DNA of 64,000 nt, from NCBI GenBank assembly GCA_950295325.1, contig OX485809.1, positions 62,001 through 126,000 on the forward strand, in the 5' to 3' direction. The DNA is from Polytrichum commune (lineage: Eukaryota > Streptophyta > Polytrichopsida > Polytrichales > Polytrichaceae). Shown in pieces: positions 14,510 through 48,500 of this stretch (position 1 is the first letter of the stretch; every line of letters begins with the position of its first letter). The notes under the pieces are model-generated. The model searched no databases, was not told the DNA's origin, and saw only the letters and a program-made list of their open reading frames with translations. The position numbers and the translations under genes were made by a program.

Positions 14510-17500
14510 GTGTATAATGTATCTCGATATATTTCGCCAGGTTTGTCTTCAAGCCTTCATATAAATAAACAATAAATAAAACAATCTATGGCATTCTTTT
14601 GCCAATGTGAATAGCATAGTCATCACATAATTTATCATGTTGGTTTATCCTATTTGACTTTATATGGAGGACCAACGAGTATCACTCAATAGGGGGTTCT
14701 ATTTCATATAAGATCTAACATTGTTGCATTTATCTATGCACACACACTTTCAAAGTGTGTGTGAGAGTGAGTGATTGAGTGATTGAGTGAACTAATATGA
14801 AACTTACTGAGTTCTTAGGGACACTTATCATCTTATAAAGTGATGGCAAAGGGGTGGGGTTAATCTCCATTAAAGGTGCGATAAGTTATTATACCAAGCA
14901 ACTCACTAATGCATCAATTTCTAGCATGCTTCACCTCAAGAGCATTATTGTTTTATGCACTAAAGCTCTAGATACTTAAGAATCTACTTTATACAAACCA
15001 TCTTCGCAAAGTTATTCACCTCCAAGTTTTATTTATTTTTGCATGTAACCACCTTAGTGTTGGAGAAAATGTTCCTACATATAGCATACCAAATGTGTCA
15101 AAGAATGGCACCCTTAATTTGTTCATTACTTAGCAAAATATCTATTGCTTTGTATGTTGTTGAGATAGTCCCCATGATGAATTCCTTCCAAGAGATGCTT
15201 TCAACCTTGCCAAAGCTCTTCCAATTGTCTTCATCAATTCGTTCAAGCCTTCCGTTGATTTTGCAATCCCTGAAGAAATGCTTAAGCAATTCCTCGAATT
15301 CAAACATGTAAATCAAGCATTTGGCATAGTCCATACATTTTCTCCTTCTTAGAATCAACATGCCACTCATGCTCAATTGCCAAAATAAAATGTTTATTTT
15401 CTCAATCCGGTGTCATTGCAAAGGAAATTGCTGGGCAATGTTTTGCTCCTTTTAAGGCAATAAATTCTATAATGTACTCAAGGGGGAGGGGGGTCGCTCC
15501 TTCTTATATTAATGTATACTCATGTGCTCATGACCTATATACCTTGCATAAAAGATTATAAGGTATAGTATTTTTCAAAATAAAGGTAAATACTTGTATT
15601 TTAATACACCCTATCAATAATTATAATTTTTGGGGGGAATCATTTAAAAATACCCTATTTTATTTCTATTGCCAAAGAAAATTGGAAAATAAATTGCAAT
15701 TCAAACAACGCGCTGAAATTTTCCCTCCCGGCACGTAGGTAGAGAACATTAACTCCACATTGGATATGTTGGTTTAGTAACGTTATAGCCAGCCAGCCTG
15801 CGAGTCATCCATCCAAGTTTTTTCAACAAAAACTTACCTCTTTTCATCCACTAGCACAGACCCTACCCTAGACCCACTACCCCCAATAATTGTTTCCATG
15901 CTATTTTACATGTACTGACTAGATAAAAGAGGCCATTTTATGTGATAATATTTTACATGTAAACATGTTTCATTATTTAAAAAACCCCTATATAATATGT
16001 ACATTTTTTTGCAAAATTTATCTACAATGAATATATTAGACCCTACTTTTTTTATTGCACATTGTTTTTACGATTTTCGCCACTGACCCCCCGAGATAAT
16101 GTACTCAAGCATTGTCATAAAATCAAAGTCCTATTGCCCTCTGCAAGATCTCATTGAAGGATTTTGATGAGTCCCCAAAAACCATAAGGTATTGGTTTCG
16201 TCATTGCAAATGGCTTTGATGAGGTCTTCTTGAGAGTTGATTTGGTAGTAATTATACTTGAAAACCCTCGCTCCCTTGAGGTTGAGCAAGTAATGGCTTG
16301 ACCTTTCCCGAACTTCTTTATAAGGAGATTCAAGTCACTTTCCCTTTGCACAAGTGACCCATGGAGTTGGTTTGGACCTTGAAAATACTTAATCTACAAC
16401 AAATGTGTCTGATGTGTTGGGCTTTGTGCAGTATCAAATATGGAAGGGTTGGGCAGTCTGGAAGCATTATGTAAGGAGGAAAACAAAAGGAGCAGCAAAT
16501 ACCAAAATTAAAAAGCTATTATTCAAATCAAACACCATATTCCACAAAGTCTTGGTCCAAATACGGACGGTAATTTGATTGTTGAGCCTTCTAGAAATTT
16601 TGCTTTAGTAGATGTTTACTTAATATATTCACATATAATAGATATTTAAATGCATTTCAAGTTTCATCATATTGGCACTAAGTATACACTCTATAATATT
16701 GCTATTTAGTGTTGGATAAAATTTGCTTCATTTGTCATTCTTTCAATTTATACATATGGACGCAATGAAGATAAATTTGAACCAACTCGATATTATTGTT
16801 ACTTTTTGTTTTATCGTGTTTTGTTAATTGAAATGCTTCGGTTTTTTTCTTCTTTCTTTCAAATAATGTATTATGTAAAGTTTGGTTTGGTGAGTTTCTT
16901 TTTTTAACAGTTCTAATTGGCAATTTGAGAAAATGAACTAGCTTCTTTGTAACTAGATACTGGATCTTCCCCCTGTCATCCTAAGGACCAACTTCAAGCA
17001 TAACCACATCAACATCAACAAAGTTGTTTGAGAGATGTTGAAACAATTATACATATGTGATACAACCTAAGGTTAACCCTTTCAATCCATTGCATACAAA
17101 TTTGGATTACTATTTAGGAGGGTCGGCAAGGCGGAGTATTTTACTCATTACAAGCATCATTTTGTAACTTCTTGTTTAGGCCATATCAATCACAAGCTTC
17201 AGTGTTTGTGACTATTAAATCCAAGAGATTAATGTGATGCCTAAGGGCCATATTACAAAGTGTCATGTACAAACGCCACCTTCGGCTCATGCCATCTTGA
17301 CCCAACAATAACAAGAGAATTTTTCATTGTCTTGAAAAAACTATTTCATCTATATTGAATATTGCAACCCATGTTGTAAAAACTATTGAACATAATGGAC
17401 ATTATCAATCCAAATTGTTGTTGTTGTGGTGGTGGTGGTGGTGGTAGAAATTTTTAAACTTTTAAATTGGTTGGATCATTGTAGTGTTTGTAAAGAATCC

Positions 17501-20500
17501 ATCAAAATCCAGACAAAGATGTGAGTCACATGGATGTCCTTGTATCATAATTCAAAAGTCTTTTCAAAAGGACACAAGTTGCACAAACAATTAATGGCAT
17601 ACTTCTCCAAACCATGCATCCTTATGATCGATAAAAATGTTATTTTTTGTATGGAGTATTTAGAGAAAAACTTTGGGCAATGAATAGATATGCGTACAAC
17701 TATGGATGATGAGGTTCCTAAATATGGATGTGACTATGACCTATACTTTGGAGATTTTTTTTCAAAGACAATTAGATCAAAGACAAGAGATAAAATCTCA
17801 AATAATGCAGGTCTCACATTTTACCATGCATCAATTACTACCATACTATTTGTGGATATCCACTCTAAGTAAGAACATAGAAGTAAAACTTATAACCCTT
17901 ACGGCCTTGCATAATGTGGCCATATGATTGTTAAGTGGGTAAAATCTATTCTCTTTCCTTGAGAATAATTCCAACATACTGCAATTTGATTTCAAAATAA
18001 AAAAGCAAGATACAAAGCCTGGATTCAAATTTTAGTTTGAAGCTTAAGCGGATGGTTTGACGGGAGTAGGATTGCATAGATTAAAGAGCAATTATCTTCA
18101 TAGGCTGAACAATGTCATGGGTTTTGTTAGTTCTTAAGTGAGATCATTGTTGCAATAAGAGATGCATGCGTTCAAGTTTTATCGCAACTTCAAGGAAACC
18201 TCATCGGTGGGACCAAAAGCAACGAGGACAAGGACAACACAAAAGCAGATGCACCGAGTGCAAAATCCACTACCCACAAGAAGAATAAACTTCAAATTAA
18301 TGAAGAGCAAGCTGACCAGGTTATCTCAAATATTATTATTCATTTGTATCTTGAAGGACCATGGATATTTACCCCTCATTTTTTAGACAATGTGAACCAT
18401 TTCCATAAAACAAATTACCATTTTTTTGTTATCGAAGTCACGTGCACATCCTAAACTCATGTATTGCGTGTGATGCATGCAACATTTGTTCTCATGCACC
18501 AAATTTAGAGCTCAATCTAACAACTGCAAGTGAGGAGTACCCTACTATGAACCTTGGTAGGGTGTATTAATGGAAAGGAAACCACCTCAAGGAACTCAAT
18601 AATGTTAAGTACATGTTTCATTGATAGAAACATGACAATTAGTGTAAAATGCATTATTATGCATTGTGCATGTAGAGCACTTGATCTTCATGCATTCCAT
18701 TTGTAACAACTACATGTGACATGCATGCATGCATGAGCAATGCCGACATGGCTAAGCTCAACATGAATATTGAAGTCTCTTTGTTTGTAAGCTATTGCCT
18801 TAACTCCATGTCATTGCATTTACATGTACATAATGAAGTCCATTATGGTGAGTTTTGAAGACATGATATTCCTCAAAATTGAACAATTATTCCCTTTTCA
18901 AATTATCAGCTTCTCTCTCTCTATATATATATATAGCATTGTAGAGCTACAATGTTTAGTGAACATGAGTTGTAGATTTACACACCTCACGAAGATTTGT
19001 CCACTTGTCTCAAAGTTGCTTCCGACTATCACACTTTAGACTAATTCAATTGAATGTCAAGACTAATATGTGAATGGTACAAGCATATATGATTTCAAAT
19101 CTCAATACTCATAAAACATGGTCACCTTGATGAAACTTGCTACAAAATCAATGATTCACATAATATGAACTATTTGAATTTCCATGAACTTATGTATACA
19201 CTCCAAAAACATACTTAATACAAATTCTAAAACAATGAAATTGTCCTTCATGGGTTCAGGATAGGTACACATATCTAATTGCGGCCGCAAAAAGAGCTGA
19301 GCAAGCAAGGTTGATTAATTTTGTAAGGTTGTCCGATTATCTCATCACGGATGGACTCCGGGTGATGCTGATTGAAACCCTTCAAGACTTGATAGGGAAA
19401 GTTAAACATAGCAAACTTGCAAGTAAAAGCAAGGCCTCAACTATTGTCCATTTAGAGGACCGCTCAGCTAGTATCAATCTCGACGATGCGGCTGCAACTG
19501 CTAGTACCACTCCAGAGGACCATGCTCCACCAAGCCCGGAGCCAAGTACTCCTCAAGAAACAAATATGGATTTCATCATGTCCGATGCACCAATTCCAGT
19601 TGCTGAAATCTTCAGTGTGGACTTGATTGTGGAAAATGATGTGTTGATTTTCAGTCCTTCATATTTGGATTATGAAGCCAAGGTAAGTGACATGATCGCC
19701 TCGTCAACTTTTCACCAGACTTGGATGGGCTCCTAGGGGTGGACTTATAGCTAGTAAATAAGTAGGCTCCAAGACCAAAGTAAGTTTGAAATTGAGTGAT
19801 CCTATTGGTCAAAAGCTTAAATTTGGACCTAAAGAGTTTATACTAGGGTTTAAGTCCAAGGTATGAAAAAGAATGAAATTGTGCTACTTTTCTACCAAAT
19901 CTTGACCGTTTCCCCAAAGGAAATATTGCTCCCAGTTTGCGAACCCAACCCTCAAGCTTGGGTCCAATCTTGAATAAAAAAGTAAGGTTCATCAAAGGGT
20001 GTTTTGGACCCCAAGTTTCTTGGACCCACTTTTTAATGTAAAACCATTCTTATTGTTCCTTGTTGAATGGCATTCTTACTTCAACTTAAGAACATGTTCA
20101 ATTTATAGACACAAACACATAGATTTGACCTGTTAACTTCAATATCATTTGTTTTAAAGACAATGATATTTTGAAGAAAAATTTACGATTAGCACATAAT
20201 TGTAGAATTCGAAAGGATTTTTTTTTCCAACCATCTAATAAAGATGACAAGACCTATAAATTAATGTTCTCTTGCATTAGCAAATCCTACTAAAACATAG
20301 TTGGGGACATTTTGTGTATCATCAGTCATAGAGTCCTCTAACTTACAAAGGGCTAAAAGCAAGTGAATTGAAATAAAACTCTTAGACAATGGTTTGGAAT
20401 TCACCAAGAAATATATTTATCTATTTATTTGGTTATTTAGTTATGAAATTGTTCTAAACGTGGGGTATTGTCTCCTCTTTCAAAGATGAACCCCATACAT

Positions 20501-23500
20501 TTCTACAACAAGTTTTGTTCACGTTGTCTCCAAAAGGCAAGCTTGTAGGTCCCACATGGCTTACTAGGTGTCTAGTTTACGTGAAAAATTGAGCATAGTT
20601 GGGTACATTAATGTTATAGAAGGACTCACATGGCACAAGGAATAAAACTTAGATCAAGTTGGTATGAACCACAAGCCTCAACCACAACACCACACGTTTG
20701 ATTTCCTAGAAATAAGAAATTATGTCAATTTTGCACTCATAACGCCGCTGAAAATGAAACACACCATTTTTGGAATGCCTATACAAACCCAATAGAGAAT
20801 GGTTTTCTTTTCTATTTCATAAAGTAGTCTTGGCAACCTCAAGTAGTTCTACCAGCTTGAGTGTTGATATTAGCCGTTACCTCACTCCATTGTACTCCAT
20901 GGCTTTAAGGATTTAGTTTCTTTGATTCCACCTTCATGTCCTCCTAGTTCCATAAACCTTTTGACCTCGTAGACTTTACGATCAATTTCATTTCACTTTA
21001 TTGGTGTATGTGGGGCCCCATTGGCGGAGGGGTGAAAATGCCCTTAGATTTATTTCACGTCTAAGTATATTGTACATAAGATATAGTGTGCCCCACACCA
21101 TTCATCAATGACAAACATAAATATTCTTTACAATCACTACATGACAACCAAAGTAGGTAACTTAGAACACTTGTTGCTACAAGACAAGTCATGCAAGCCA
21201 CTCAAATTGACTGGACACATCATTATGAATGTCTCATTGAGATTCTTCTTGATTTATAAGTTGTCATTGAAGTTGATGGAGTGCTATGTACATTTACAGA
21301 TCGACGAATATTTCCAAAATGCTTTAGAGGTGGTTCGACATTTACGGAGAATGATGTACCACCCTTTGTTGGATGGGGTTGTGGACAAAGGAGATGTGGA
21401 TGTGGATAACCTCCAACCTTACACCGAGCTCATTGGCGAGGCCCAGTTTGGACCCGTCATGAAGAGTATCTTAAAATCCATTTCCTTGTACTTCCATGTA
21501 TGTCTCTCTACCTTTACACCACAAATAAATATATTACATATCAATTATTACTTTTTCTCCATCTCTAGCAAGTCCCCCATTAATTGGTGCAATAGTTGAT
21601 CTGGATGTAAAAATCTTCCATCCACAAAACCCTAATCGGCGTGCACGTTGTGTCATCAACAAAGGATCCAATATGCAATGTCTCATAAGTATGCACCACA
21701 ATAATATTTTTACAACTCATAATATTGCTTGTCAAGATGGTGAACTTTCACAAAACCTATTGATGGAGAGGGTGATTGTGAAAATGTTGTTGAGGAACTC
21801 AGACATGCTATTTTGAGGAGAAGTTAGTCCCTAATCATAGATTCTAAATTAGTCTAGTGAGCTTAGATTGGGGTGAACTACCTATGAACCCCATAGGAAC
21901 AAGATTTTCATATTCCCCTATGTAAGGTGTGAAACACAATCCTTGTCAAGATATCCCATGTAGGTGACATGAACTTTCAACCCTTGTCAAATTTATATAT
22001 GAGGACCGGCATAAAACATACTAATGTCTTAAGTACAAATTGATGTTGACATGTTTCTAAAATAACATACCTTGGTTTATTTGAGGTCTTTATGGTGTTT
22101 GCTTTATTTTTATGTATTTTCTCTAAAATAGTCCCACTCAAACCCAACAAAAGCTAACCTTTCCTTAGGTGATGTTGCTTAATCTATCATTTATATTAAA
22201 ATATTATATCTATATCTATTATATTTTCATGTTGCAAAGGTGTCAATGGGATTCCTCCAAGACTTGATGTGAATGTAAACAAATGTTGGATAGTTATAAA
22301 CTTGATCTACTTGATCTAGTTATCAATTTGTTTATAACAAGGGTCAACACTTTAACGGGGGGAACTTTGATACACTTGAGCTTTTGATAACATGAGGTTG
22401 GGCCAACACATGTGAAACTAGTCAATTAAAGACCAAAGTCACGATTTACAACCTACATTTGTAGGTCCAAGATTATGTTGTTCACCTAAGCTCAAAGTTA
22501 TGGCGACTTGTTAAACTTAAACACCACCATGACCATTTTTGATCTTGTGGTGGGGCGGTAGGGACAACCCTTTACTTAGTAGGCAACCAAATAAGGAATG
22601 GTGGGTGGCTACCTAGGTTTGTGCATCTCGGAAACCCCCTTCAACAGGTGAAGATGGACCGGAAAATATGTTGTCAGAGGCCATGCCCTCATGACCATAG
22701 TGCCCAATGCCATCTTGTAACGGCAAATTCTTGCTCTGACCATAACTCATGTGTCATGCCATGGGTGTTGAGTGCCTCTCCTATGTTGCGAGTAATGACT
22801 AGTATCTCATATACTTGGGGTCGGGGAGAGGGGGAAGGAGAAATGCAAATACAAATTTCACACACTCACAAAATGAAAGCAATTGCCCAACAATTGCACA
22901 AGTCATATGAAATTTGTTTTGTTATCAACATTTGAAATTTGTTCACTATTGCCAACTTCCATCGTGTGCACTAAGACCCATTGTTTGCTCGTGGATTCTA
23001 CACCTAGACACCAATTCACTTACGTGACTCACATATAGATTTTGGAATCTTATAGAGCTTGGACAGCTGCCAAAATAACTATAGTTAACTAGATTTTTTT
23101 CCATACATTTTAGGGAACAACTATAGTTGACTAGAACAATTTCAAACCGATTTGAAAAACAACTACAGTTAACTAGAAAAAAAATCTAGACAACTATAAC
23201 TTGAGAGTGCCAAAACATGTAACATCCCAAAACTCAAACTCCCAATCCATAACAACACGGATTGGCAAGGCCAAGTATTTCTTTGATCCAACTCCATCGA
23301 CCTTCCCAATCAACTCATGCTTGGTGCCTTCTTTCTCCAAGGAATACAACAATATATTTGAAACCACATTGCATATGTGTGTTTGATGAGTATGGTAAAT
23401 CTCATCCACACCAAAGCACCCTATGTTGGAGAAAACGTATTGACCTATGATTTACACTCTATTTTAGAAAAAAACTCTACATCAATACATTGATTACTTC

Positions 23501-26500
23501 ATTTAGTGTGTGATACTATTTGAACTTACACAAGGCAACAACGTCTTACTCAAGAGTTCAATTTTTACGAACAAAAATTCAAATTATGACTTGGCTTGGT
23601 TAAATATTACATTCTCATTAAATAATTATAGCATTGTGTAACTCTGAATTGTTATACGCACTAAATGGGATTATTAGCGTAGCTTTTCCTTTTCCTATTC
23701 CTCACTTTACTTATATGTACCATACACTCAATAATGTAACCCATCCAGAAATAATCCTAAAATCTAGGGTATTTTAATTATCAATTTTATTTTATTTATG
23801 TTTTTTCTCACATGTGGTGTGTGCATTTTCAACAATGAACTCCGTGGGAGAAAGAGACACATGTCCTCCATGAGAATGGCAACTTGTGCAAGGTGATGAG
23901 CATTTGCTTGCCAACTTGAAGTAGGGGGTTGCACACAATTCTAACAAAAATGAGATTAGATGGTTGTCAAAGGCCACATCATCTCCATGAATGATATTAT
24001 TTCCATGTCTTTAAGAATCATATCCTTCGAAGGAATAGGAATAGAAGCGATCAAGGCTATCCTTTGTTAATTGTAACTTTGTTATAATTTAACTTTTGAA
24101 AATAAATTGCCACCCCTGCGCGCGCGCGTGTGGACTCTTCATTGGATAACTAAATGGTGTGTGTGGGGCATATTGAGATTAAACCCCCTATATACGGCAA
24201 CTTTATGAAGAAAAACAAAGTGATGTACGAATGGCAAGCTAGAAAATAGATTCGTGTATTTATACCAAGCTTTACAATTGAACATGATAAATGCCTCCAC
24301 TACATATACAAAATATATATCTTGATTTAAATATGCCCTATTACATATAAAATCCACTTCGCTTTCCAATGAAAAAATCATTGAACAAATTTTCATCCAT
24401 AGCATGTAACTTAATAATTGTGAACTCGGGGGGGGGGGGCCAGTGTGTTAAAAAGTTAAGGATATAGGTGCGAACAACCATTATTTTATAGGGGGGTATT
24501 ACTTTCAATTCTCTTCTTTTTTTCACATGCTATCATTATGTAATTTTCTACTTTGGGTTAATTGAAAAATGGCTTGCATTACTTATAATTCCAAATTACC
24601 TATTATTCCATACCCTATAGTACTTTAAAGATGTCCAGTGCCATTTTTGATACCCTATATTACTCTTAAGTCCATTTATAATTTTTTGCCCCCATGTTTT
24701 TAAAATACCCTATCATTTGTTCGCACGTATATTGCTACTCCAACCAATGACTACCCCCCCCCCCCCCCGAGATTGCGAACTAAACAAATAAAGACAAAAG
24801 CACAATAACTTAGTCACAATCCAAAGAGAAAATATCAAAGGAGTCTATGCGGTTCAAGACCCTTCAATTTATAAAAACTTAACACCCAAATGCAAAACTC
24901 TAACAAATATGGACATGGTAGTCATTAAGGACTATTACCGTATGATAACAATGGTTGAAAACGTGAAACAAACACACCTCTTCTCAAATTTTCCTCTAAA
25001 TCTTAGGGGCCCTTTTTGTACATCTCTCAAAATTCTTGATACCAACAATTTTGACCTATCAGTCAAAATTGTTGGTACACAATTTTGACTGATAATTTGG
25101 GGAAAATGTACACAGTAGATTTTTATTTTTATTTAAAAAAAAACCTCTCCAATACTTATACTATGTACGCTAATGCCTCAAATAATACCCCTTCTTACAC
25201 TCATGCTAGTTCCTATGTGATATGAAGATTTTACCCCCGGGGTGCCACCCTATGTTATATTCCACCCCCTTCTATTAACTATTGTAAAGCTTGCTCCCTA
25301 AGAGTCACACTAGTCTCTTACAAATGTAAAATTAGTGTGATGATCATTCATGGGAAACGTATTTCAAGAATCACTCTATATCCAAAAGAACTAGTGAGAC
25401 TAGGTACTCAATGTGGAATTTTGTAAGTTCACAAATCCCAGGACATTGTTGGCAACTAACTCACTGCACCACCACAAGTCGTCAAATTACGAAAACGTTC
25501 AAAATTTGTGGAAATGGTAAGCTCCTTATGAAGCCCCCTTCAAATAAGGAACGAAAGGTCATTGTAGCTAGGGTGATGAGCATATTTCATACTCATAGAA
25601 GCTCGCCATGATTTATCCTAACTAACCTTAACTTACTTACCCTAAATATACTAACCTCCCATTTATGCAAAAAGGTTCATATGTTTGGGTATCTTATACA
25701 TGTTTGTGATCAGGCCTCAAAAATCTTGATGAAGGCTAAGGCAAGTCAAAGTTTTTTAGTCTAGAGGTTTGTGGATACCTCTATTACAAGACACATATAT
25801 GACATAGGATTGATCTTTTAATTGTTGTCAATTTAAAGTGCAGGATTTTGAGCATGTAGGGGAGCCATTTGAAAACCATCTTGCAACATGCTTATCACTT
25901 CGTCAAATTAGCGTGGAGAGTCTCCAAAAGGAGGTAAAAAAAATTGGGTTGTTCTAGAGGTATCCATGTTTCATACATAATAGGTTGAGAATAGTAATAT
26001 TATCTTACAATGAATCGTACATTGGTGACATTTGCAAAACTGAAAATCATCTGACAAGGTGGACGAGGGGAAAAGGGATCTAGAGCGTTTTCGTGATGAC
26101 ATTGATGCATATCTTGAATTAACTGAGAAGATTGTGGCTTTACCAGATTTCAATGATGTGGTTAGTATTTTCTATACATTCCAAACCTCTAGATCCATAT
26201 ATGAACACTAAATTCAAATCAATTCACTTAAAACGTTGCAACACTTTAAACAATGTTTACAAAACATAGGACTACATTTTAATAGATTAAATTTATAATT
26301 GCAAGATTCCAAAGGTTGCATTATGTGTGGATGCAATGTTAAATGAAGCATGAGTTAATTGTTGGGTTGATTTTTTTTAGAATAAAAAATAAAAAAACAC
26401 CCTAAAAGATGTTACAATTACATCACATCATTGATTCAACTTTGAATGTTTGTTCACCTACATTTGAGATGCATTCTACTATCTTCTTGAAATTCTTGTT

Positions 26501-26838
26501 GTAAGACTTAGGGCTGGTTTACACTACGGTGGAGAAGTCCACCGGTCATGAAAAAAGGGCGTTTCTCAATTGTGATTGGTCGAAAATGCAACTCTTGACC
26601 GGTGGGTGTTTACACTAGGTGAAGAAAACAATGGTGGTGAACTTTTCTCATGGATGATAAAATGACATGGCCGCCTACATGGCGGCACTTTTTGGAGTGG
26701 GCTTCTCCGGCCTCAAGAGGCCGGACAAGAAACTCCTCCTCCGGAGAAGCCCAACTCAATAAAAAATTAATTTTCAAAAACAGATCTGGACCGTAGATTT
26801 CAGATATGGTTTTTTTCAAAACCTAAGGTGTTGGCAAG

Positions 26839-26900
<62 letters not shown>

Positions 26901-29900
26901 AGTAGCTCCTTAGCGTTTTTTTTTGTGCAATTTTTTTTCGCAATGTCTGGTTACTCACAATTTCAGTTTGGTAGTAGCCAAGATGAGGATGACCTCATTG
27001 GTAGTGAGAATTATTTTGAGCCCTCAAGGCAATTTCCACACCACCCTCTCCTTGCTCCCAAACAAAAATTATGCCATCATCATAATTGAAGCATTATGGT
27101 GATACATGATGGTTTTTTGTATCGCCATAGTTGAAATGATAAAAGACTTCAAAACCATAAAGATCATAAGAGAGCACAAAATCTCTCTTCTTCAATTATC
27201 CGTGATTGAAGATCAAAGATAAGAAGAGAGAAATTGATGAGGATGATTAAGAGGAGAGTATGTATTAAATAATACCAAAGAGTAGTGCTTTGTCCAATGT
27301 GTATGGGTTTTCCGCTCTTCATTCTTAAACACCCAGGGAGACATTTATTTCCTACATGGGCCAAACTTGACAATTGGCAATTTGGCAATTTTCATTATCT
27401 TTTGAATAAAATTGAACATTATATTACACAATTCTTATGAACACAATTCTTGTTGAAATCTTTTGATACAATGTGAATGTAGAGAATTATGGTTTTTTTA
27501 TCACAAAAAAATCTTCAACATTAGGTGAACTTCTCTTCACCGGTGGACTTCTCCGGTGGACTTCTCCGCTAAACTTCTCCTCTAGGTGTTTAGACTTCAA
27601 CCGGTCAAGACTCCTTAAGAAATATTTTATTGCCTTTAATTCTTCTCCGGCACATCCACCATTTGCCTCATATAACCATGTCTTGGCCAAGCATTCTTGA
27701 CCGACCGGAGGCCTTCTCCACCGTAGTGTAAACTGGCCCTTAGTTGGTCTTTATTGGAGGTAAACTCAGTTTTGCATGTTGAACCAAATTGGCCATGATT
27801 TGAATAGAAAACATGAATTTCTTATAACTGTTGGTCCATGTGACTCCAAATTCTAGAGGATATAATGGTATCCACACCTAATTGTGATCCTTACCCAAAA
27901 GCAACCCCTAACTTTTTAAACATGAAACAAACATGATTTGTGACATGAGAGGGAGGATTTATTTTGGACATGCCTATTATCAACATTTAAAAAATCCATA
28001 TGCTTATATTTGTGTTGGAATATTCTTTCATTTACAAACAACACCAAATAACCATTAAATTCATCTAGTAATAGTAGTTGTGCTCATATTCTGATTACAA
28101 CAAATGTAATTACTAGGTGTAATTACCTGACATGTCTATGTATTTTCATTCCCTCGGGGGGTTCAGTGGCGAAAATCGTAGAACAACGTGCAATAAAAAA
28201 TAGGGTCCAATATATTCATTGTAGATAAATTTTGTAAAAATTGTACATGTAAAATAGGGGATTTTAAAATAGCGAAACATGTTTACATGTAAAATACCAT
28301 CACCTTATAATATTTTCTGCAAGGTAAATAACCCCCCCAATAAATAGGTCCTGAACTCACGTGCATGCAAAATATAAGAGGGAGTGAACCCCCCGAGTTC
28401 ATTCCTAGGCACTTGATTGAATTTTGTGATGAAAATGTAACCAGGGAATTTTCCATGTCAACAATATTCCTGCAAAAGGTTCTTTATTGCCTTTGCCACA
28501 AAAAGCACTCGAAAGCATTTATCATTTGTTACCTGTCTTGGCTGCACGAAGATTTGAGGTTCTATATGTCAAAGCCTACTAAGCCAATGATATTTATGTT
28601 ACACTATGAAAGGACCACAATAACACAACCTTCTTTTGAGAAAGAGATAAGTATTGTAGGTGATCAACAAGTTTGACACAAAATAAATAAATAAATTCAA
28701 CACAAAGAGCCACATGTCACATGTTGGAACCTCTCTATAATTTTGTATGTCATCTCAAAAAATTAACAATTCAACACCAAACCGTCAAATATGCATATTA
28801 CCTTTCGTAAACACTCCTTTGATAAATAAGACATTGTTTGTCTTATTACAAGCTTTTCATATTCACCCATAATGGATCTCTTTGGAATTTGAGGGCTAAC
28901 TTGGGAAAGAGTTGATGCAGGCCTTCATGAACGAAGTCCATGCTGCGGATAAAAAATTACGACAAGTACCATCAACCGTAGAAGAGTTTGTTGATATCGC
29001 AAGCTTCAATGAGGTACAAAATAAACATCCTCTATTCATAAGTTGTTAAGCCATGTGCGAGGGATCCTTTGGTAGGTCTTGTTGCCAAGAATATTGGATT
29101 ATTTCTCAATGAGTCAGAGTTAAATCTTGGAAATGCAACTTACCAATGCAATTAAAATCTATGTGTATGCTCATACTCAAAAGGATGAGCTCCCTCTCAT
29201 CTTAATAATGTTATGTCAATCTTGGGCAAAGTAACATAATTGAGGTATCACATGTTGCCACCATTTCATGGCAACCAATACATTACATACATTTTCCACA
29301 TTTCAAAATAGCTTCAATATTAACATTTTGCACATGGAGGATTTGCTAGGTTAAACTCGATAGAAGTGTTTGAAAACTTTGATGATAGGATAAAGGTTAG
29401 CTTTGCTACCTCCAAACGAGCAATCATTTTTGTAAGATGAGTGTTTTGAAGCATTTTATTATAAGGTCAAAGCAATATTGCATGATTTTTTGTCCCTTCA
29501 AACTTGCCCTCACTATATAACCATAAATGACCTGATGCCAAAATTTATTTACAACTCATTTGAAATGAAAGGTTGACGTATGATAGACACATGTATTAGA
29601 TTTGAAACACAATCCATGTAGTATGATTCCCTTTGACAAAGCATCATAGGACATCATGAAGCGTTGTCGTACTTCACTTGCATAAACACACTTATAAATT
29701 GTTTCTAAGATCGTAAGAAACCGTTAGCCCTCAAAGGTCCTAGGGGCCGAATATAGGAATTATGACATTTCACTTGAAGGTGTTTATGTTGATGTTTATG
29801 CTATTGTAAGCTTTTGATACATTTCAAAGGCAATCCACCTAGAACTAGCCCAATTATCACGCTCTCCTCCAATTGGAACATCAAAATATGCAAAAGAAAA

Positions 29901-32900: not shown

Positions 32901-33499
32901 ATTATAGGTTTTACAGTATTGGACTACTGTCATTCACTAGGTGACGTTTCATGCAATGTCAACCATCCATGACACTATTCATTACAGAAGTGCTAGGACG
33001 CAAAATTCACCCAACATTGTTTCAATAGTTGGCATTTGGATGAACTAAAAGTAAGTTGGGATGACAATATTTGTAAACTTATCCGTATGAAGTGCCACTA
33101 GAATTATTTACCACGGTGACATGAATTATCCATATGACAGTAAATACGATATTTAGTGGTAGCTATATAGATGGAAGCAAGCAAGGAAGCAAGGGTTTAG
33201 GGTTTAAGGTTTGCCTTGGTGGTGGGTGGTGTACAAGGTTAGATGCGGAGGAGGATGTGATATTGGAGTACATGGGGAAGCTCCACAGAGATGTTCAAGC
33301 ACAGAAGGCACAAGCTGTGCGCATTGTGGAGTACCAACACCTTTTTGAGGTACCCCTACAATTTTACATAATACACTCTCGTGGTAAATATTGTGGAACA
33401 CTGCCACATTGTATATTGTGTTTACAAGGTAGGTAATAAACCCCACCCTGCACGAAGAGGATTCTTGAACAGGGTAGGACCAATGGACTCAAATTGACA

Positions 33500-33579
<80 letters not shown>

Positions 33580-36500: not shown

Positions 36501-39500
36501 AACATAATTTGACGAAAAGAGTTTACTTTACCTTACACAATTGTCAGAATTTGGTAGAATCTCACTCTACAAAAACCTATGTAGTGTTGATACTTCATTG
36601 TAAGGTATTAGGTAGGGAAAGGTGTTCACATTATATGCTATTTTTATTAGTGATTAAATATGTCACTCATATGGAAGGTGTTGTAATGTGTGGTGGGTGG
36701 TGGTAGATATTCGAAGCTTGCGGTGAAGATGGAGAGGATGATGCCTCCCAACCCCGTGGTGAAACGTCTCAAAGTCATGGTGAATGAGTTGGCTGCCACA
36801 CTGCCCGTCATCCAAAACATGCGCAACCCGGCTTTGAAAGACCGGCACTGGAAGAAGATGGAGACCCTAATTGGACGCAAGGTAATAAATAACAATAAAG
36901 GACTCCAATCAAATAATACGCCTTTCACTGCACCTATGACTAACTGTGGAAAATTAAAAGTTAGAGTGGGTAGAAAATATTGTGGTCCACTATGTGTGGG
37001 GCAAAAGTTACGATGGCTAATATTAATATTAAAGTAATGTAACAACAAAATTATATTTCTCTCATGATATACTACTGATACGATGTTTTCCAACTCCCAG
37101 TCTTTCATGTCCCATAATAACAATGATTTTATGTTTTTATGTTTGAACTCAAAAATGATGTGGGCCAAGAAAAAACCTTCATTGACTGAAATTATGATTA
37201 TAGTATCGTCATAGCACCTTAACCACATCGGATATTTATTGGCGAATTGATATTATTTTTTTTTATAGATGGTGAAATCACGGAGTTGGTAGGAAATCTG
37301 GTTTTTTTCATATTAAAATTTTGATATTTAAAAAATAAAATTCCTGATTTTTCTCTCTTTAAATATAGTTTTAATTAATGCCAGAGTGGTAAATTCACTA
37401 AACCCTAATATGTCAAAATGAGAGTGCCAAGTGGGCCACAAGAATAGGTGTGAAAAGTGTGACTATGGAATGGTATATTTCCTAATGGATAGATATTTTA
37501 TAGAATGAGCAGTCTATCTTGACAATGGGACAACGAAATGAAAGAAACGGTATGAAATAATGGTGACGAGAACGAATCTTCATTCATTCACGCTCGCTCC
37601 TTCACCTCGGGGGGTTCACTCCCTCTTATATTTTGCATACACGTGCGTTCGGGACCTATTTATTGGGGGGTTATTTACCTTGCAGAAAAGATTATAAGGT
37701 ATGGTATTTTTCAAAATAAAGGTGTGATGGTATTTTACATGTAATCATTTTCACTATTTTAAAACCCCCTATACCGTATTATATGTAATATTTTTACAAA
37801 ATTTATCTACAATGAATATATTAGACCTTATTTTTAATCGCACTTTGTTCTACGATTTTTCGCCAGTGAACCCCCCGAGTCCTTCACAAGCCAAAGTATC
37901 CATGTATCGATCTATGAATTCTCTGTCCGAGAATTAGGGTAATCGTCAGAAAGCTGAATGAAGTGGCACTCATGAATGGCAGATTGAGAGGAATGCGCAA
38001 TTCACGCTGGGGAAATTGTTGGAGCTCAAAGTCATGGAATTCACCAACGACATCGTGAGCATTTCAAACGAGGCCACACAGGAATTGGGCCTAGAGGAGC
38101 TCATGGAGAAAGTCAATAATAAGGTATTCACTCCCCCCCCCCCCCCCAGCTCTTACTAGCGTGGGTGGAATCAATGAATGTGGGCCACTCTAATTGTCTC
38201 CACTACTTGGTCTAGTTAGTGTGGGTTACTGTTTCGAGTTATGCAATGATATAATATTTTACCCAAAGTATCATTCTTTACTCAAATAACATAAGTACAT
38301 TAAATATGATATTTAGTGTCACTTACTGTTCGGAGTTACACATTCCTATATCTTCTCACTATTTATGTGATTTTTCATCAAGAAAAGATGCTAGAGTTCT
38401 ATTCATGTCCAAACAACTAGTTCGACCTTTGTTGGTGGAAAATGAGATGTACGGTAAAACAATTATAATGTTGTGTAATTCCAAATAGTAAGTGACACTA
38501 AATATAAATTGCACACGGAAGAATATGTTATAACTTAGTTGGTGAAAAATGATAATGGTAGGAACATTTTATAATAAACATGTAACTTTGAATGGTAACT
38601 TACACTAATTAGACAAAATAGTGTAGCCGGGGTGGAAATAATGTGGGTTCAATACTCGACATAAAATAAGATAGTCGTCTTATGTTTAAAATAGCATTAA
38701 AATAATGATTCATCCACATCCATCCATCTTCTAATGAAAAACAACTAATGTGGCCCACACGTTGTTCTTGCACTTGTTACTTGTAGGAGTAAGAATTTGG
38801 CAGACAAAGTGAATTGCTTTCCATGTGTTCTCTAGATGTACATCATTTAAAATAAATAAATAAAAATTGGTCTCGATGAACTCACATATTTGAGTGTGTG
38901 ATGCATCATATTATTACCAGTGGGTCACAATTGAATTTGTGGTTAAACCATTCAAAGAAGTGAAAGACTGTTACGTTTTGGGCGGTGTTGATGATGTCAT
39001 CGCCGCTTTAGATGAATCAATGGTCACCATGAATACAATCACTTCATCAAGGTACGCTCAAACACCAATCCCTTACTCTATTTGGTATCAAAACATTGTG
39101 ACTACATCCTCACTCTAAGTACGTGAATTGTGCCACTAAAGAAAAGCGATACCAAACCGACATTGGTAAACACCATCTATTCTTCTTCAAACTTTGGCTA
39201 GACTCACTAATAACTATATCCACAAAGTTCGTGCACCCCAAACTAACTAGAATTTGTTATGTAGATTCTTACCGTTACGAGTCTTGCAATTAGGCAAAAG
39301 CCATAGTTGTGGTTGTGTACTTGCTTTGAATTAATTGACAACAACGTAAAGAAGAAATTGAACAAAGATGAGGATGACGGGCTCATAGTCACGTCACTGA
39401 AACATCTAATGATTCTCTTCATTTCTTTTCTTTGGAAGAAAACGCATATGTATGTGCAGTAGTAAAAATGTGGGAGTTTCACGACACAGTAGTCTAGCAC

Positions 39501-42500
39501 AAAGTGACTAGAATGACACATGGTGATGTCGTTTTGATCACTTTGTGTTAGACTGTCGTGTCATGAAACTACCGATGGCTTGAAGTGTGGAGTGTGAGCC
39601 CAATTTTGACGACAATGGACCTTTCAATCAATTTGCATGTAGGTATGTGACGGGCATTCGAGCGGAGGTTGAGAGATTGGAGGGCCAGTTGAAGCATTTC
39701 GGGAAAGTGCTAGACCAATGGTGTGAGTGCCAAAAGCAGTGGATGTACCTGGAGAGCATCTTTAGTGCACCCGACATCCAACGTCAATTGCCGAATGAAA
39801 GCAAGGCTTTCTTTGCAGTTGATAAACAATTCAAGGATATCATGAAACGAACTCACGATAGGTAAGATATTTACACATCAACTTGAACCTTTCATTGTAA
39901 GGGGAGTGTACGTATTATATTATGGACATTATCATCATTCTCATATGTGTAGGGGTTTGATAACAAAATAAAATACACTTGAGCATATTAGTGAATAACA
40001 CAATTGAGGAATGTGGAAGTTGAGCTTGTATCCCTTGTGAATATCTCCTACGTTATTCAAATGGAACTCTTAATTTGTGCCTAAAACAATTTTTATTTTA
40101 TTTTCTCACATATGTACATTGTAGGCTAGGATATGTACCTACATGCTTTAAAACCTATACATATAAATTGCATCATATCTCATAGGAACTTGGTTCAATA
40201 TCATGAATTATGTCCTTAGTATTTACAGTAGTATGAATTTAAGTTGAATTTTTGATCTGATGTTATCAATCATATCATGTTATAGCTTCATAAATTTCCT
40301 AAAAATGGCTTAGAGTATAAATATCCATTCACCATGTTCTATTATTATACAACATACTTACTCTATCTTATAGGGATTGGTCTCAAACTATAAAGTTTCC
40401 CATGATAAGCTACATGATAGATCAATTCATTAAGTTTATCATGGTAATCCTATGTTTCATTGCACAATCATAAACTACCTCGTAATTCTTATTGGTGTGA
40501 TTTTCACAAATTTTCTTGAGTGTCATTTCTTTATGCTATTCTTTTGAGGCCGAGATTTTACTTCACGTTCTTTTTGAAGTGTTGTTATCACAAAAGGGCT
40601 ATATGTTAAGGTTGAGAAATGGATATAGGTGTCAAGGTTGACATCCAACTCTAGTGATTACAAAACATGCATATTAACCTAGTACCATAGTAAACTTGAC
40701 ACTAATGCATTCATTCATTCATGGACATTTACATTAACACAACTCACATAATTACTGACTGAAACCCATGATGACTTAGTTGATGTGACACAAAAATAGC
40801 TTATAATTTGACATGCAAAGTGTCGAATTTGCATAAATACTACGTGTAACTCTAAACTCTAACGACCATTCTAATTGCAATCAAAATACTCATAGAATGT
40901 TTGTGTGGATCCAATATGCCTATATTAATAATTGTACGATTTCATATGTATAGAGCAAATGCCCTTCAAGCAGGCTCGACACCCGGATGGCTTGACATAT
41001 TTATAAAAAGCAATGAAACATTGGAGAAAATCCAGAAAAACTTGGAGGATTATTTAGAAACAAAGCGTATGGCATTCCCAAGGTTCTATTTCTTGTCGAA
41101 TGACGAATTGCTAGAAATTCTTGCTCAAACAAGAAACGTTCAAGCTGTTCAACCTCACATGTCAAAATGTTTCGGTAAGTAGTGTTCATCTTTACGCTCA
41201 AAACACTTGCCATGAGTAAACACCTACTTGGAATATTTCCGGAGAATAGAAGATAGCATAAGACTATAATATGAAAACTATGTAGGAGTGATGACAATCC
41301 AATAACGTGCAATCTTATAAAGGGCCAAGGATTTGTGACTCCTCAAGTAACATGGTTACAACAAATCCTAAGTTTGTAACATTCTTTGACAAAATTGCCA
41401 TGTTGCCTTCTTGGAAAACTGGGTTAGGTCAAAGTTGGAAGATGGTAAAATTAATATGGGTTCAGGCTAGACAAGTAGTCTGAATATGTAGTTTGACTAA
41501 GTGTTGCTGAAGAATGTTATCTCCTTTCAAAGTAACATAAATCCTTTAATACCTACAAAATTTGAAAAATGCAAACCACCTAACTTTAATGCTACATTTA
41601 TCATATAAAATGCACATACCGAAAACCAACACTTCATCCAAAACCATGTTCTTTGGAGACTTCAAATGCACGACAATGATACATGATGTTAGGCGGGAGT
41701 TATTAGTTAATTTTGGGTATGCCAATCTTAAGTATCCACATAGAAGTTGTTAATTCATGAAACACATGGATATTGAATTTGGTAAGCGAATGTGTATCAG
41801 ATGGCATCAGAAGTTTGGACTTTGGAGAAGACCCCAAAAGCATTGACATTTTTGCAATGGTGTCTAGTGAGGGGGAGAGAATTCCGCTGGGCAAGAATCT
41901 AAAAGCTCGTGGAAATGTGGAGAATTGGTTAACAGCCGTGGAGCAAAACATGGTGTCTAGTCTCCGGAGGTTCTCTTACTATACATGAATGTGCATTGAA
42001 ATACGTCATCATTTTCATACAAAATCCATAAAAACAAGTTGGATACGTCACTCACCCGTTTGCAACCCATTGTATCAATCAATTTCATTAGCTATTAATT
42101 CCATTGCAGTTTATTTACTTTTAATGTGGCTCGCTAGACCGATTTGAAATCCATGAAGATTAATCATGTGTCCAATGACCTTGAATAAGTACCACTCAGC
42201 AATATTAGTGGGAGGTATGCTTGTGTGCAATGATTCTCTCTTGCTTTTCCATACTCGTTGGTCTCTCACACAAATTTTGTCTTGCCTAGATTGGCAAAAC
42301 TTGCCCATGTAGATTATGCTAAAAAAGAACGGAAAGAATGGGTGCTCCAACATGCAGCACAATTGGTGGTTATGATTTCCCAGGTGCACTATTTATCAAA
42401 GTATTATTATTATTATTATTATTATTATGTTCTTTGTAGAGATCCATAACATTGCTTCTTATGGGATTGCATTAGCATTGGTCAAGGGGAGATCCCAATT

Positions 42501-45500
42501 TCATCATGTAGATCATAAATTCAACATAAATCCTAGTAAGCTAGTATTTTCAACATAAGCAAAAATCTACACAAATAAGATTAACCCTTAATGTACATGG
42601 AATTATTCTTGCTACATTTATTTTGATTCTTTATTTAGGGGCCACACATAATATTACTCAACAACTATCATTTGTTCAGTGGGCCCCAGGAATATAACAA
42701 TCAGATGCTTGAAAAGTTGAAACTCTTGCTCAACTTTTTGAGCATCCGACTATTATATTCAAGGGGCGCACTCAAAAAACAATAAGTGCTGAGTGAACAC
42801 CATGAATATAACAATCAGATGCTTGAAAAGTTGAAACTCTTGTTCAACTTTTCGAGCATCTGACTGTTATATTCAAGGGGCCCACTAAACAAACAATAAG
42901 TGTTGAGTGAACATAGGTGTTGAGTAATGTTATGTGTGGCCCCTAAATAAAGAATCAAAATTATTGTAGCAAGAATAATTTCATGTACATTAAGGATGAA
43001 TCAAATTTGTCTAGATTTTTCCTTATGTTGAAAATACTAGAGTACTAGGATTCATTTTGAATTAATGATCTACATGATGAATTTGGGATCTCCCCTTGAC
43101 CAATGCTAATGTTTCTCTCCTTCACTCCCGATGCTAATTTTGGGTTTGTGAACTTCAACTATTTGGATTGAAGTCTAACTATCCAGACTATGTATCTACG
43201 AAACATGGCAATTGAACTACATCTATGTAAGATAAAAGGTCTTACTCCAACATCCCTTTCACCATTGAATAGAAATTTAATACAAAGCTTACAAATGAGA
43301 GTCCCACAATAAACATCAAGTCGTGCATGAGCTATATTCTCACAAAACCAACCTGTATGGATTTGACCCCAAGGTGGACTTGAAGTCCAAATTCTTGTAA
43401 AAGAGTACATTTCATTCTTAGAAAATAACAAATTAAATGGTGGATGTGATCCTTGTGTAGTAAACATAATGTCCAAAAAGTTGTAAAATCTATGGTTTTG
43501 ATCAATTTTGGATTTCAAGGTAGCTATGTTAGCATGAAAACTTCAATACTACAACCTTTGGACCCTCTGTTAATTTTTTTGAAAAAAATAATTTAAACAT
43601 CTTCATTATGATAATGGTTTTCACAATCAAATGATTTTGATGGAAAACCCTTCACATCAAGGGTGATCTAGAAGCTCCAAGTTAATATGTTAACCCCTAG
43701 GACAATTAGTTCTCAATGGTCTAAAGGGGCCCAATGCATGGCTTGTATGCACAATTCCAGAAGTCCACAATAAGGCTTAGAATCAAGTGTGACATTTATA
43801 ATCAATATAATCAACATAAACAATCAATACAATTAGCTTAAAAACCAAAAACAATCAACATATATAGTCAACATATTAAGTATGTATTTACATCCAAGGG
43901 CACCCAAGTCGTGTTCTTGAACATGGACCATCAAAAACATAAAAGTGTTAAATTGATTTAAAAGGTGCATTTGATGAATGCACCAAATGAAGATAACTAT
44001 GGTTACTTCGACACAATTTACAAACATGCAAAAAGGAAAGTATGTAGCTCAAGTACATGCTTTGTGCATGTCCCTAATAAGACCTGCCAAATTTTTATTG
44101 GGCTAACCCTCAAACCTCATAAAACCCCGACATGTCCTTGGAGAGAAGAAGAAAAGAAAATCTTACCCATAACTTTGTCATTAGCCATTTCTGTTAGGAG
44201 TACACCTACCTAGAGAAATAGTTAAAACCTTCTAACAAACAACTTCAATGAAAGGAGTAAGTTGAAATTATGGTGTAAATACAGTCAAGGGCATCATATA
44301 AATCAACATACAACTCTATAAACTTTGCACTATCTACTAATGCTACACATGATAATAATAATAATAATCATGTACACTATGTTGCAAACAGCTAGTTTTT
44401 GAACCTTGGGCTACATACATACATACATAGTGCAACATTGCTATGAATCGATGTCTAAAATCATATTCTTGTGCATGCTTTTCTAATATATCAAGTAGTT
44501 ACATAATGTAATCTTGAAGTGATTTCCAACAACTTCTCTGTGAATGCAACGAACAACATTTCAGCAATGAAAGTCTTTCTTCATCTTACGTCACGTCGAT
44601 TTTCGAAACACACCATTGACATTTGAGGACTAAAAATAAACTTACATGAGCGATTGACCACCAATGGAGCCTGTAGGTTTATTGGTGCTTGTCTGTTGAG
44701 ACTTGCTTATTTGCTGAAGATGTGGAGGCTGCTTTGACGAAATGCTTAAAACAAAATATTGATCAGCTGGAAGAGCTCTCGGTCCTCGTGAGAGGGGATC
44801 TGCTTCCGTTGGACCGGAAAATATTGACGGCACTTATCACCATCGACGTCCATGCTCGCGATATTATCGAAGACATGCTTCGGTTCGTAATTCACTAATA
44901 AGTGTGCAAACCCCACTCCCCCCCCCCCCCCTTAATGAACATGTTATCATATTAGTCTTCATACCTGGTGCATAATTAGTGTAGACGTGCCTCATTTGTA
45001 TACTTATCTCTACAAGCCCGTTTACGGTAAGATATGAAACATCCAATTAGTGCAAGATGATTAGAAACTCCAAGTTGTGCCTCGTGGTTTTTGGAACTCG
45101 TATGAATTCTTCATAAACCTCAAAGTAAAGATTCTTGTGCTTATTAAGTGGTCATATAGGTCCCTCTAATTATGTTCACTATTGAATTTTGGAATACTTT
45201 GCATATTTTGGTGACTTAGTCCAGTCACTCTCTCGGGGGGTGCACCTTTCATTAAAACCTAGAATCACGTGCGTTCACTGCATACTCTAAAAACCCCCTA
45301 TATACAAGTTATTTTTTGTGAAATGAAGTAATACACATACAATTGCAACAATAAATATACAAGTGACAATATGTATACACAAAAAAACATCCATTCATAT
45401 ATAGTCATTAACGTAAGTATACAAATATATTTTTGAACAATAATCAACCCCTATAATATGTATAACAAAATATCCTAGCTTTCATCAGCAAAGTCGTTGA

Positions 45501-48500
45501 AAACTTTTTCATCTCCCGGATGTAACTCATAAACATTTGATTCACCAATATATGTCATTGTAGCCAATGCAATTATTGTCTCTAAGTCTACCATCAAATG
45601 ATCAGTAAGATCATATGTCCACTTGTTGTTAGCCCCTTTTTGATACCAACATAAACCAATCTCCACGTTTGATGGACGGTCCATCAAGTCAATTGGATCC
45701 CTATACTCCACCCAACGATTACAAAACTTCCTCCACATCCAATATGAAAACTTATGATATGTAGTATAGTAACAATACCATACAAGTACAATTATTATAT
45801 GCTTTTTAAAGGCCTTCCATATATGTACGTAATTATAAATTATAACATGTATACCATATGTATACGTAATACGGCAAGGTCCAAATCAATACCCCTCCTG
45901 TGCACTCACGTATACTCGTACATGTTTAGTACAGTGCACCCCCCGAGGTCACTCTTACACACGTGTCTTTTTGGTGTCCATTCTTAGATCCACACCTAAC
46001 TGTGTACCAATCAAATATAGGTGTGCATGTAAGATAGGTACTCATATTAGGCATGCTTCTATTAGGGGGTTTGTTGGATCTTGGACTTGAACCCTAATGT
46101 AAACCTAAAAATTACAATCTTTAGGCCACTTTGTATTTTCAAGACATTTTTGTTTACCCCTAAACACATGTTTAAGATCCAAGCCTTTTGCATGTTCATG
46201 AAGGTTGGAAGGCTAGAAAGTAGGTTTTTTGCAATGCAAACTTGTCGACATCTATGGAAAGATCACATCCACATGGTTGGTGTTCTCAATTAATGTAATG
46301 AACTCCATGCAAGATTTCTTTTGGTTTGATGATAATTAAATCTCTCAAATTTAAAAATCACTTAACCTTAATATGTTGATTTTTTTTGATGTTCTAAGTG
46401 CATGTAGGTTCTTGATACATCAAAACATAGAGTCAATTATGGCTATTTATAGATGATACAACAAGAGGCATTGGTTTGAATGAAAAGTGTTACTAATTTC
46501 AGACATATATGTGCAATTTTTATATATTCTATATTCTTTAATAATTTCAATTAAAATCATTTGACATGCATTTCTTATGATTCATGAATATATAAATCAA
46601 TAACATGGTACTATAAATATGTGTTATATCTAAATTGTAAGAAAATACTCTATAAAAACTTATTTGAAAATTTTAATTATTTTTGTGAAGTAAATTTTAA
46701 ATATGGAAATTTTGTTATATTTAGAGTTTTCAAAAAATTTCATTCAACCGGTGAAAAGATTTTCCAGTTGCAAAACCAAAATTTAGCACCTTTCTGATAT
46801 ATATATATAAAATAACTCACTGGGTACGCAACTCCCATATTATACGTAGGGGGCATCGTATTAAAAACGGCTTAGAGGACGGCTTTTGTAAAAATTATAT
46901 CAAATTATATCAAATTAAAATGATCAAAAATTTGGGTGAAGACCAAATTAAATAAAATGAGAGGGAAAAAAATTTGGGTAAAGACCAAATTAAATAAAAT
47001 GAGATGAAAAAAAAGTTGGGTGAAGACCAAATTAAATAAATGAGATGAAAAAAAAGTTGGGTTGCATATTTATTAAGCCTCTCATTAAAATTATAAGCCA
47101 CGAATAGTTTCCTCCCATTAAAATTATAATTCATTCTCTATTTTAAATTTGATTAAAAAGTCCAAAAAGTTGGGTAGTTTGACCTATGGTACATGTATTA
47201 AAAAAATCATATAATTAGGTTTTTAATGCAATTATATGCTTCAAAATATATTCATTTCTTATATATAATTAGATAATTGGATTCCTTGTTAGAAGGGCTA
47301 CAAGGGTTTCCTACATTAAAACAAATTGTATCACTCAATATTGGACTAAAACGCATTATAAGTGATTATAATCAAGACCATATAATACGGGAGTTGCGTA
47401 CCCAGGAATAACTCCTAATGCTTTATGTGTTAGTTTTTTCAAAATGTTGTTTGAAAAAAAATTAGGTCACAAGCAGATACAAATGCCTCCTATTGCCACA
47501 ATAAAATTTGATAGGGTCCCATGCAATTTCTTTAAAATCTTGTAAAACTATGCTAATATACCATATTTATGACAAGTCTAGCTAATAAAATATACAAATA
47601 AAAAAATAAAAACCAGGTTACAGATTGTTGTCTGGCCCGGTTTTACTGCAGAGACAAGATCTTCAAGTCCACAGAGTTTGGGTGGCAAATGCAATTGCGA
47701 TATTATTGGGACGACGTGATTGAGGATTGCGTGGTGCGACAAACAAATGCCTCCTTTGCTTACGCTTACGAATACTTGGGAGCGCAACCCCGCCTTGTTA
47801 TCACTCCATTGACTGATAGATGCTACATGACACTCACAGGTACTGCATGTGTCAATCTGGGCAATCGTTTTGCCAAGAAGTGACCTCAAATCTCAGAAAC
47901 GTAAAATTTGGACAACAACAGAGAAATTTTAAAGTTTAGGAAACAGACGAACTTATAATTGTCCAAACTGTAGTTATTAGTGAATTTTATGATTGATGTC
48001 ACATTCTGTTCATGTCATTCTATAGAAGAAAAATAATCACCTATGGTCTAGTGATTGCCACTTTTACAAACACAACAGAAGGAAAAAAAAATAACAATAC
48101 ATTGCTCGTGCAGGTGCTTTACACCTCAAACTTGGAGGTGCACCTGCTGGGCCAGCCGGAACCGGAAAGACGGAGACTACAAAGGATCTTGGCAAAGCTT
48201 TAGGCATTCAGTGTGTGGTGTTCAATTGCGGAGATAACCTTGACTACAAGGTAATAATAGGTATGCCTTATACGTACTACACTATTGTTTTCAGCTCATA
48301 CAGGCTAGGGGGCTCTTGGTGTCTACGTAACCTCATCCATTACGAACATGACAACCTGACAACACCACAAGGTACTCTACAAACTACTGGTAGTTTTAAG
48401 ATGTTTTGATTTCGGCAATTCTACGAGAGACCCCAAATTAGTCGAGTGGAATCTGGTTGGAACAATTCGAACCTTAAGCTATCAGTAAAAGAAAACTTGT

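Follow-up and report, generated by a model that had tools for sequence, protein, structure and literature searches.

Cut-and-paste transposons of the hAT (Ac/Ds) type, together with their miniature inverted-repeat transposable elements (MITEs), combine 8-bp target duplications with short terminal inverted repeats; their deletion derivatives are moved in trans and their ends take the form CAGNG. Mutator-like elements (MULEs) leave duplications of about 8–11 bp, and Lanisha is a superfamily reportedly proposed by moss genome workers and said possibly to come from mosses. In PMC12730594, 8-bp duplications are given for Zisupton and, as the usual size, for hAT; the CMCT groups, among which its author counts Lanisha, are described there as having mostly CA..TG ends and duplications of 2–5 bp. 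Here we describe five short elements (E1–E5) in a 64,000-nucleotide stretch of Polytrichum commune (bases 62001–126000 of contig C7, hereafter the window), the genome comprising 407.8 Mb in 64 contigs, of which C1–C7 measure 42–78 Mb each and sum to about 406 Mb. The elements have G-rich inverted ends of the form CTCG(n) and 8-bp duplications at independent sites, they occur in many copies, and the E5 kind has spread recently. We put at roughly three in four the probability that they are MITE-like cut-and-paste elements whose best transposase candidate is a predicted protein of about 1,500 residues, with E5 and a family of 1.31-kb elements as deletion derivatives.

The end sequence CTCGGGGGG occurs nine times in the window compared with a mean of 0.03 in shuffled sequence, and none of 100 shuffles reached nine. 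An earlier note on the window had named four insertions with common termini and perfect 8-bp duplications, and the duplications were confirmed at all four: ATAATGTA at E1 (15477–16095, 619 bp; duplication at 15469–15476 and 16096–16103), TTCATTCC at E3 (28153–28397, 245 bp; 28145–28152 and 28398–28405), TCCTTCAC at E4 (37606–37879, 274 bp; 37598–37605 and 37880–37887) and GTCACTCT at E5 (45232–45947, 716 bp; 45224–45231 and 45948–45955). The common termini hold for E3, E4 and E5, which carry CTCGGGGGG at both ends; E1 starts with CTCAAGGGGGAGGGGGG instead, and CCCCCCGAG is found at its right end alone. CTCAAG opens the left end of E1 and the identical six bases come after its right duplication (window 15477–15494 and 16096–16110); the left end looks as if target-side sequence had been copied into it. 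The sequence CTCGGGGGGTTCACT fits E4 at both ends and E3 at one, the other end of E3 having one mismatch, and the ends of E5 are CTCGGGGGGTGCACC and CTCGGGGGGTGCACT. The four listed elements are thus real, but the list had missed E2 (24425–24771, 347 bp), which has long G-runs at either end and a duplication matching at seven of eight bases (ATTGTGAA/ATTGCGAA, 24417–24424 and 24772–24779). A second E2-like copy, elsewhere in the genome (L092:729–1073), has the exact duplication TATATACA.

The four insertions had also been taken for a single family, which comparison by blastn within the window did not bear out: E1, E3 and E4 are interrelated (82.6–94% identity across shared parts), E5 had no match to E1–E4 and is a separate young family, and E2 had no match to anything else in the window. 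E3 belongs to the E4 family and lies in the orientation opposite to E4; E1 represents an older sister family of E4. The five are thus three kinds of short non-autonomous DNA transposon (E1/E3/E4, E5 and E2), which have in common their short ends and, judged by eye, a subterminal motif near ACGTGCG. E3 and E4, the two shortest copies and the ones from which recent activity had been argued, are only 82.6% identical over 276 columns, so that no evidence of recent activity comes from that pair.

The genome search with E4 scored the best 40 of 1681 candidates, which makes the copy numbers lower bounds; with E5 and E1 the best 40 of 1728 and of 545 candidates were scored, and 30 loci, the window's own included, were examined in each case. 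The E4 family was represented by 39 copies besides the window's (the genome-wide check with the 274-bp copy that the earlier note had proposed), and their 8-bp duplications are exact in 34, off by one base in four and by two in one, the borders being allowed to move by up to six bases if the end was at most one mismatch from CTCG. Duplications in the E5 family are exact at 28 of 30 loci and have one mismatch at two; a stricter count recognised the ends at 27 of the 30, with 25 of those exact. Two of the E4-family loci (L059 and L060) have the same duplication and are probably one insertion represented twice in the assembly. Copies of the E1 family show 87–91% identity, the window's own aside, and the best end pairs, picked by fewest mismatches, gave elements of 613–637 bp at 24 of 30 loci (10 of the 24 with exact duplications). 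Finally, all six fetched loci of the 1.31-kb family described below have CTCG(n) ends and exact 8-bp duplications.

Exact duplications pooled over the E4, E5 and 1.31-kb families number 69, of which 68 are distinct, and these strongly support the independent transposition that had been read from four sites in the window. T is in excess at position 2 of the duplication (62 of 136 in a symmetric count, p ~0.001); the nTnnnnAn pattern was present in 9 of the 68 compared with 6.2 expected, which is no enrichment. A 9-bp duplication was rejected, as the bases adjoining the pooled duplications give no such sign. The E5 kind moved recently, because three copies (two on C7, including that in the window, and one on C1) are identical across 716 bp; when E5 and the 30 loci were aligned, each copy had 2–11 substitutions relative to the majority sequence. 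Copies of E4 differ from their own majority sequence by 2–7 substitutions over about 269 bases.

Coding remnants were found in two of the families. A 1312-bp element (L086:71–1382) is nested inside an E1-type copy and flanked by the duplication CGATTAAA; its minus strand holds the end of a reading frame with 32% identity to the E5 frame, as written from the E5 majority sequence. A search of the genome with its 110-amino acid tail, in which the best 150 of 1014 candidates were scored, gave at least 150 matches, mostly in frames of about 120 amino acids. At six loci (L114–L119, L114 being the same element as that at L086) the tail sits in elements of 1306–1327 bp with CTCG(7–19) ends and an exact 8-bp duplication in every case, and when E4 was compared with one 1.31-kb copy, its ends aligned with those of the copy over 74 and 78 columns. 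Terminal G-runs are 7–19 long in the 1.31-kb family (12 ends; L114–L119) compared with nearly always 5–6 in the E4 and E5 families (L001–L069), a variability that slippage or assembly error could produce.

Among the tail matches listed, two lie in longer frames (251 and 261 amino acids) and have 69% identity. The locus L120 (C5:37330950–37333650; 2,701 bases read) has a 223-amino acid exon terminating in the tail, to which the 1.31-kb tail is 69% identical; on its upstream side this exon continues into the C-rich terminus of a further element of the CTCG(n) type, and its 251-amino acid frame is therefore partly accidental. The 108 amino acids upstream of the tail are not present in the short elements examined. 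When these were searched against the genome, with the best 150 of 495 candidates scored, at least nine matches lay in uninterrupted frames of 1,493–1,549 amino acids and two in frames of 1,180 and 1,185 amino acids, the others being in shorter or broken frames. An inner stretch of 95 amino acids, from 288 bases read from one 1,518-amino acid frame, had 94 matches in the genome (all 106 candidates scored) and is contained in all nine of the 1,493–1,549-amino acid frames. It is identical in five copies, on C2, C4, C5 (two, 22 kb apart) and C6, whose frames are of 706, 1518, 1518, 1518 and 1506 amino acids.

Of the 57 best inner matches, 46 are followed on the same strand, no more than 20 kb downstream, by a tail-side match, at a distance of 1.48–1.73 kb in 40 of these; two of the 46 (C1:32921221 and C6:563993) each lie upstream of a tail match that is among the most similar (69%) to the 1.31-kb tail. 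The long frames and the pairing of inner with C-terminal matches argue that the long gene is a dispersed repeat predicted to encode about 1,500 residues. The E5 frame in the window (45475–45885, minus strand; 136 codons from stop to stop) resembles the C-terminus of this protein towards its end (45481–45738), with 30.9% identity to the long exon at an E-value of 4.9e-6 relative to the sequences gathered in this analysis. A relative of the C-terminal end of the long protein is thus kept in two short CTCG(n)-ended families, E5 and the 1.31-kb family. The window also has a decayed E5-like relic (5581–6330, plus strand), recognised by blastn and by matches to the long protein: its core (5832–6330) is 77.7% identical to E5 over 515 columns, and 5581–5664 and 5817–5894 are two further short matches to the C-terminal exon. 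The earlier note had called for a long member that has the same termini and a transposase. Frames of about 1,500 residues answer this in part: they encode the protein end seen in E5 and in the 1.31-kb elements.

The inverted ends, the fixed duplication size, the copy number and the recency show that these are non-autonomous cut-and-paste transposons. A transposase provided in trans would bind the ends, perhaps at the subterminal motif near ACGTGCG, cut the element out and then insert it with an 8-bp stagger. Its source would be the single uninterrupted frame of about 1,500 residues in the dispersed longer repeats, so far as sequence can indicate, and the protein is a likely transposase. On this reading, internal deletion would have produced E5 and the 1.31-kb family, both of which retain the C-terminal coding part, and would have left E1, E3 and E4 with little besides their ends. 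Several points weigh against this interpretation. It is only by way of the short derivatives that the long protein is connected with CTCG(n) ends, and for E5 that link is only about 31% identity. Further, 11 of the 57 inner matches have no C-terminal match among those used, two of the five identical inner copies (the C5 pair, separated by 22 kb) may represent a single local duplication, and searches of Pfam and the PDB recognised no catalytic domain in the parts of the long protein that were read.

In these searches the 223-amino acid L120 exon and the 95-amino acid inner stretch matched no Pfam model, with matches up to E = 10 considered. The tail alignment had no match in the PDB; the inner stretch had just two matches there, with E ~1, and none in a plasmid collection. 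The inner stretch ends in GHSSDGDSRRRQ, where a catalytic aspartate may lie, although this is a guess. The tail looked, by eye, like DUF4216, BAH or similar plant domains, none of which was matched by Pfam, and the E5 frame gave one chance-level match to YWFCY (E = 0.17). An AlphaFold model of the 93-amino acid E5 tail alone had a mean pLDDT (predicted local distance difference test) of 41.8 and was not used. In the open-licence literature, titles and abstract openings yielded no family with these ends, and the string CTCGGGGG combined with transposase retrieved only papers unrelated by title.

The earlier note left the superfamily open, and with no Pfam match in the long-protein stretches read we likewise do not assign one. 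A new transposon superfamily is a tentative proposal that we would not favour outright, and a diverged known superfamily is about as likely. EnSpm/CACTA and the other CMCT groups, Lanisha included, resemble the present system in their large transposases but differ in their ends and duplications, which are here CTC..GAG and 8 bp compared with mostly CA..TG and 2–5 bp in PMC12730594; for EnSpm/CACTA, the longest frame with a PF02992 (TNP2) match was of 689 amino acids and none approached 1,500 (best 150 of 643 candidates). MULEs are similar in duplication size and in their abundant short derivatives. They differ in that the matches to PF10551 (at least 142, among the best 150 of 271 candidates) lie in frames of at most 694 amino acids, and in the lack here of any sign of a 9-bp duplication.

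Among the alternatives, the one that survives best is a diverged branch of another known 8-bp group such as Zisupton/KDZ, P or Merlin, which we regard as possible but less than probable. A very long transposase would not be out of place in Zisupton-type groups, and the 8-bp duplications are a likeness to Zisupton itself. Against this, the KDZ model PF18758 had no match and no candidate in the genome, a null that says little because the control genomes were equally silent; and the 223- and 95-amino acid stretches matched none of the Pfam models, no genome search having been made with P or Merlin models. It is rather unlikely that the long protein is not the transposase and that what the short elements carry is a fragment taken up from some unrelated repeated gene. 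Gene pieces can be captured by non-autonomous transposons, and no catalytic motif was identified in the long-protein stretches read; however, E5 and the 1.31-kb family, which differ in their construction, share the same C-terminal end, as expected of deletion derivatives, and the long gene is itself dispersed, with copies identical over 95 amino acids on four chromosomes.

Least probable, at long odds, is that these belong to hAT in spite of their unusual termini and are moved by a hAT transposase, of which the genome has many: 8-bp duplications are usual in hAT and matches to its dimerisation domain (PF05699) are plentiful here, some in long frames, but the ends start with CTCGG and not CAGNG, the 68 duplications have no nTnnnnAn preference, the longest PF05699 frame is of 1,084 amino acids with none near 1,500 (best 150 of 1060 candidates), and no hAT dimerisation domain was recognised in the C-terminal 223 amino acids of L120. 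The last two points count against hAT only on the premise that the transposase is the long protein. As a source of these ends, 13 hAT loci (L101–L113) were scanned for CTCGGGG, and a single CCCCGAG in three of them, with no pair, was found in stretches that for 12 of the 13 span only 1.5 kb on each side.

Other observations were made in the genome and the window. Equal long hAT frames (1,084 and 420 amino acids) occur several times each among the best 150 of 1060 dimerisation-domain candidates, and these sets may represent recent hAT activity. A cousin family (L025:301–790 and L019:1428–2649) has ends CACGGGTAGATCACT and a subterminal ACGTGCG, and its 8-bp duplications are exact (CGTTCTTT and GGTGAGGT); the copy in L019 is interrupted by an inserted E5, which is flanked by a separate duplication (CTATTTAC). 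The window has a long inverted repeat at 42470–43111 (199-nt arms, 91% complementary, 244 nt between them) and a pair of 42-nt inverted arms at 26506–26547 and 27703–27744 (88% complementary, 1155 nt apart), the latter possibly being another transposon. Dynein motor domains lie at 51.0–51.8 and 57.6–58.1 kb of the window and were confirmed within 51–58 kb only, the four insertions that the earlier note placed in introns of one presumed gene lying at 15–46 kb; a GDSL-lipase match of plant-like appearance (E = 0.0054) fell under its cut-off.

At L120, the minus strand of bases 1–627 has a frame of 209 amino acids that is similar to 2OG-Fe(II) dioxygenases (PF13640, E = 0.027, short of the cut-off). 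It is located upstream of a right end of the CTCG(n) type (L120:1955–1975) that is followed by TGCTCAGC. If this frame lies inside that CTCG(n) element, it may be a case of a dioxygenase carried by a plant transposon; transposons bearing TET/JBP are recorded from fungi in PMC12730594.

Being numerous, and with at least one young kind among them, the short forms mark recent transposition in this moss, and they are likely to contribute variation in and close to genes. If the long protein represents a diverged offshoot of a known group with 8-bp duplications, that group would gain a new member, together with a clear case of deletion derivatives next to the source from which they probably came. 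A transposase outside the known superfamilies, if the long protein is one, would be a new eukaryotic recombinase whose genes are apparently uninterrupted and recently copied, and which would be directly testable.

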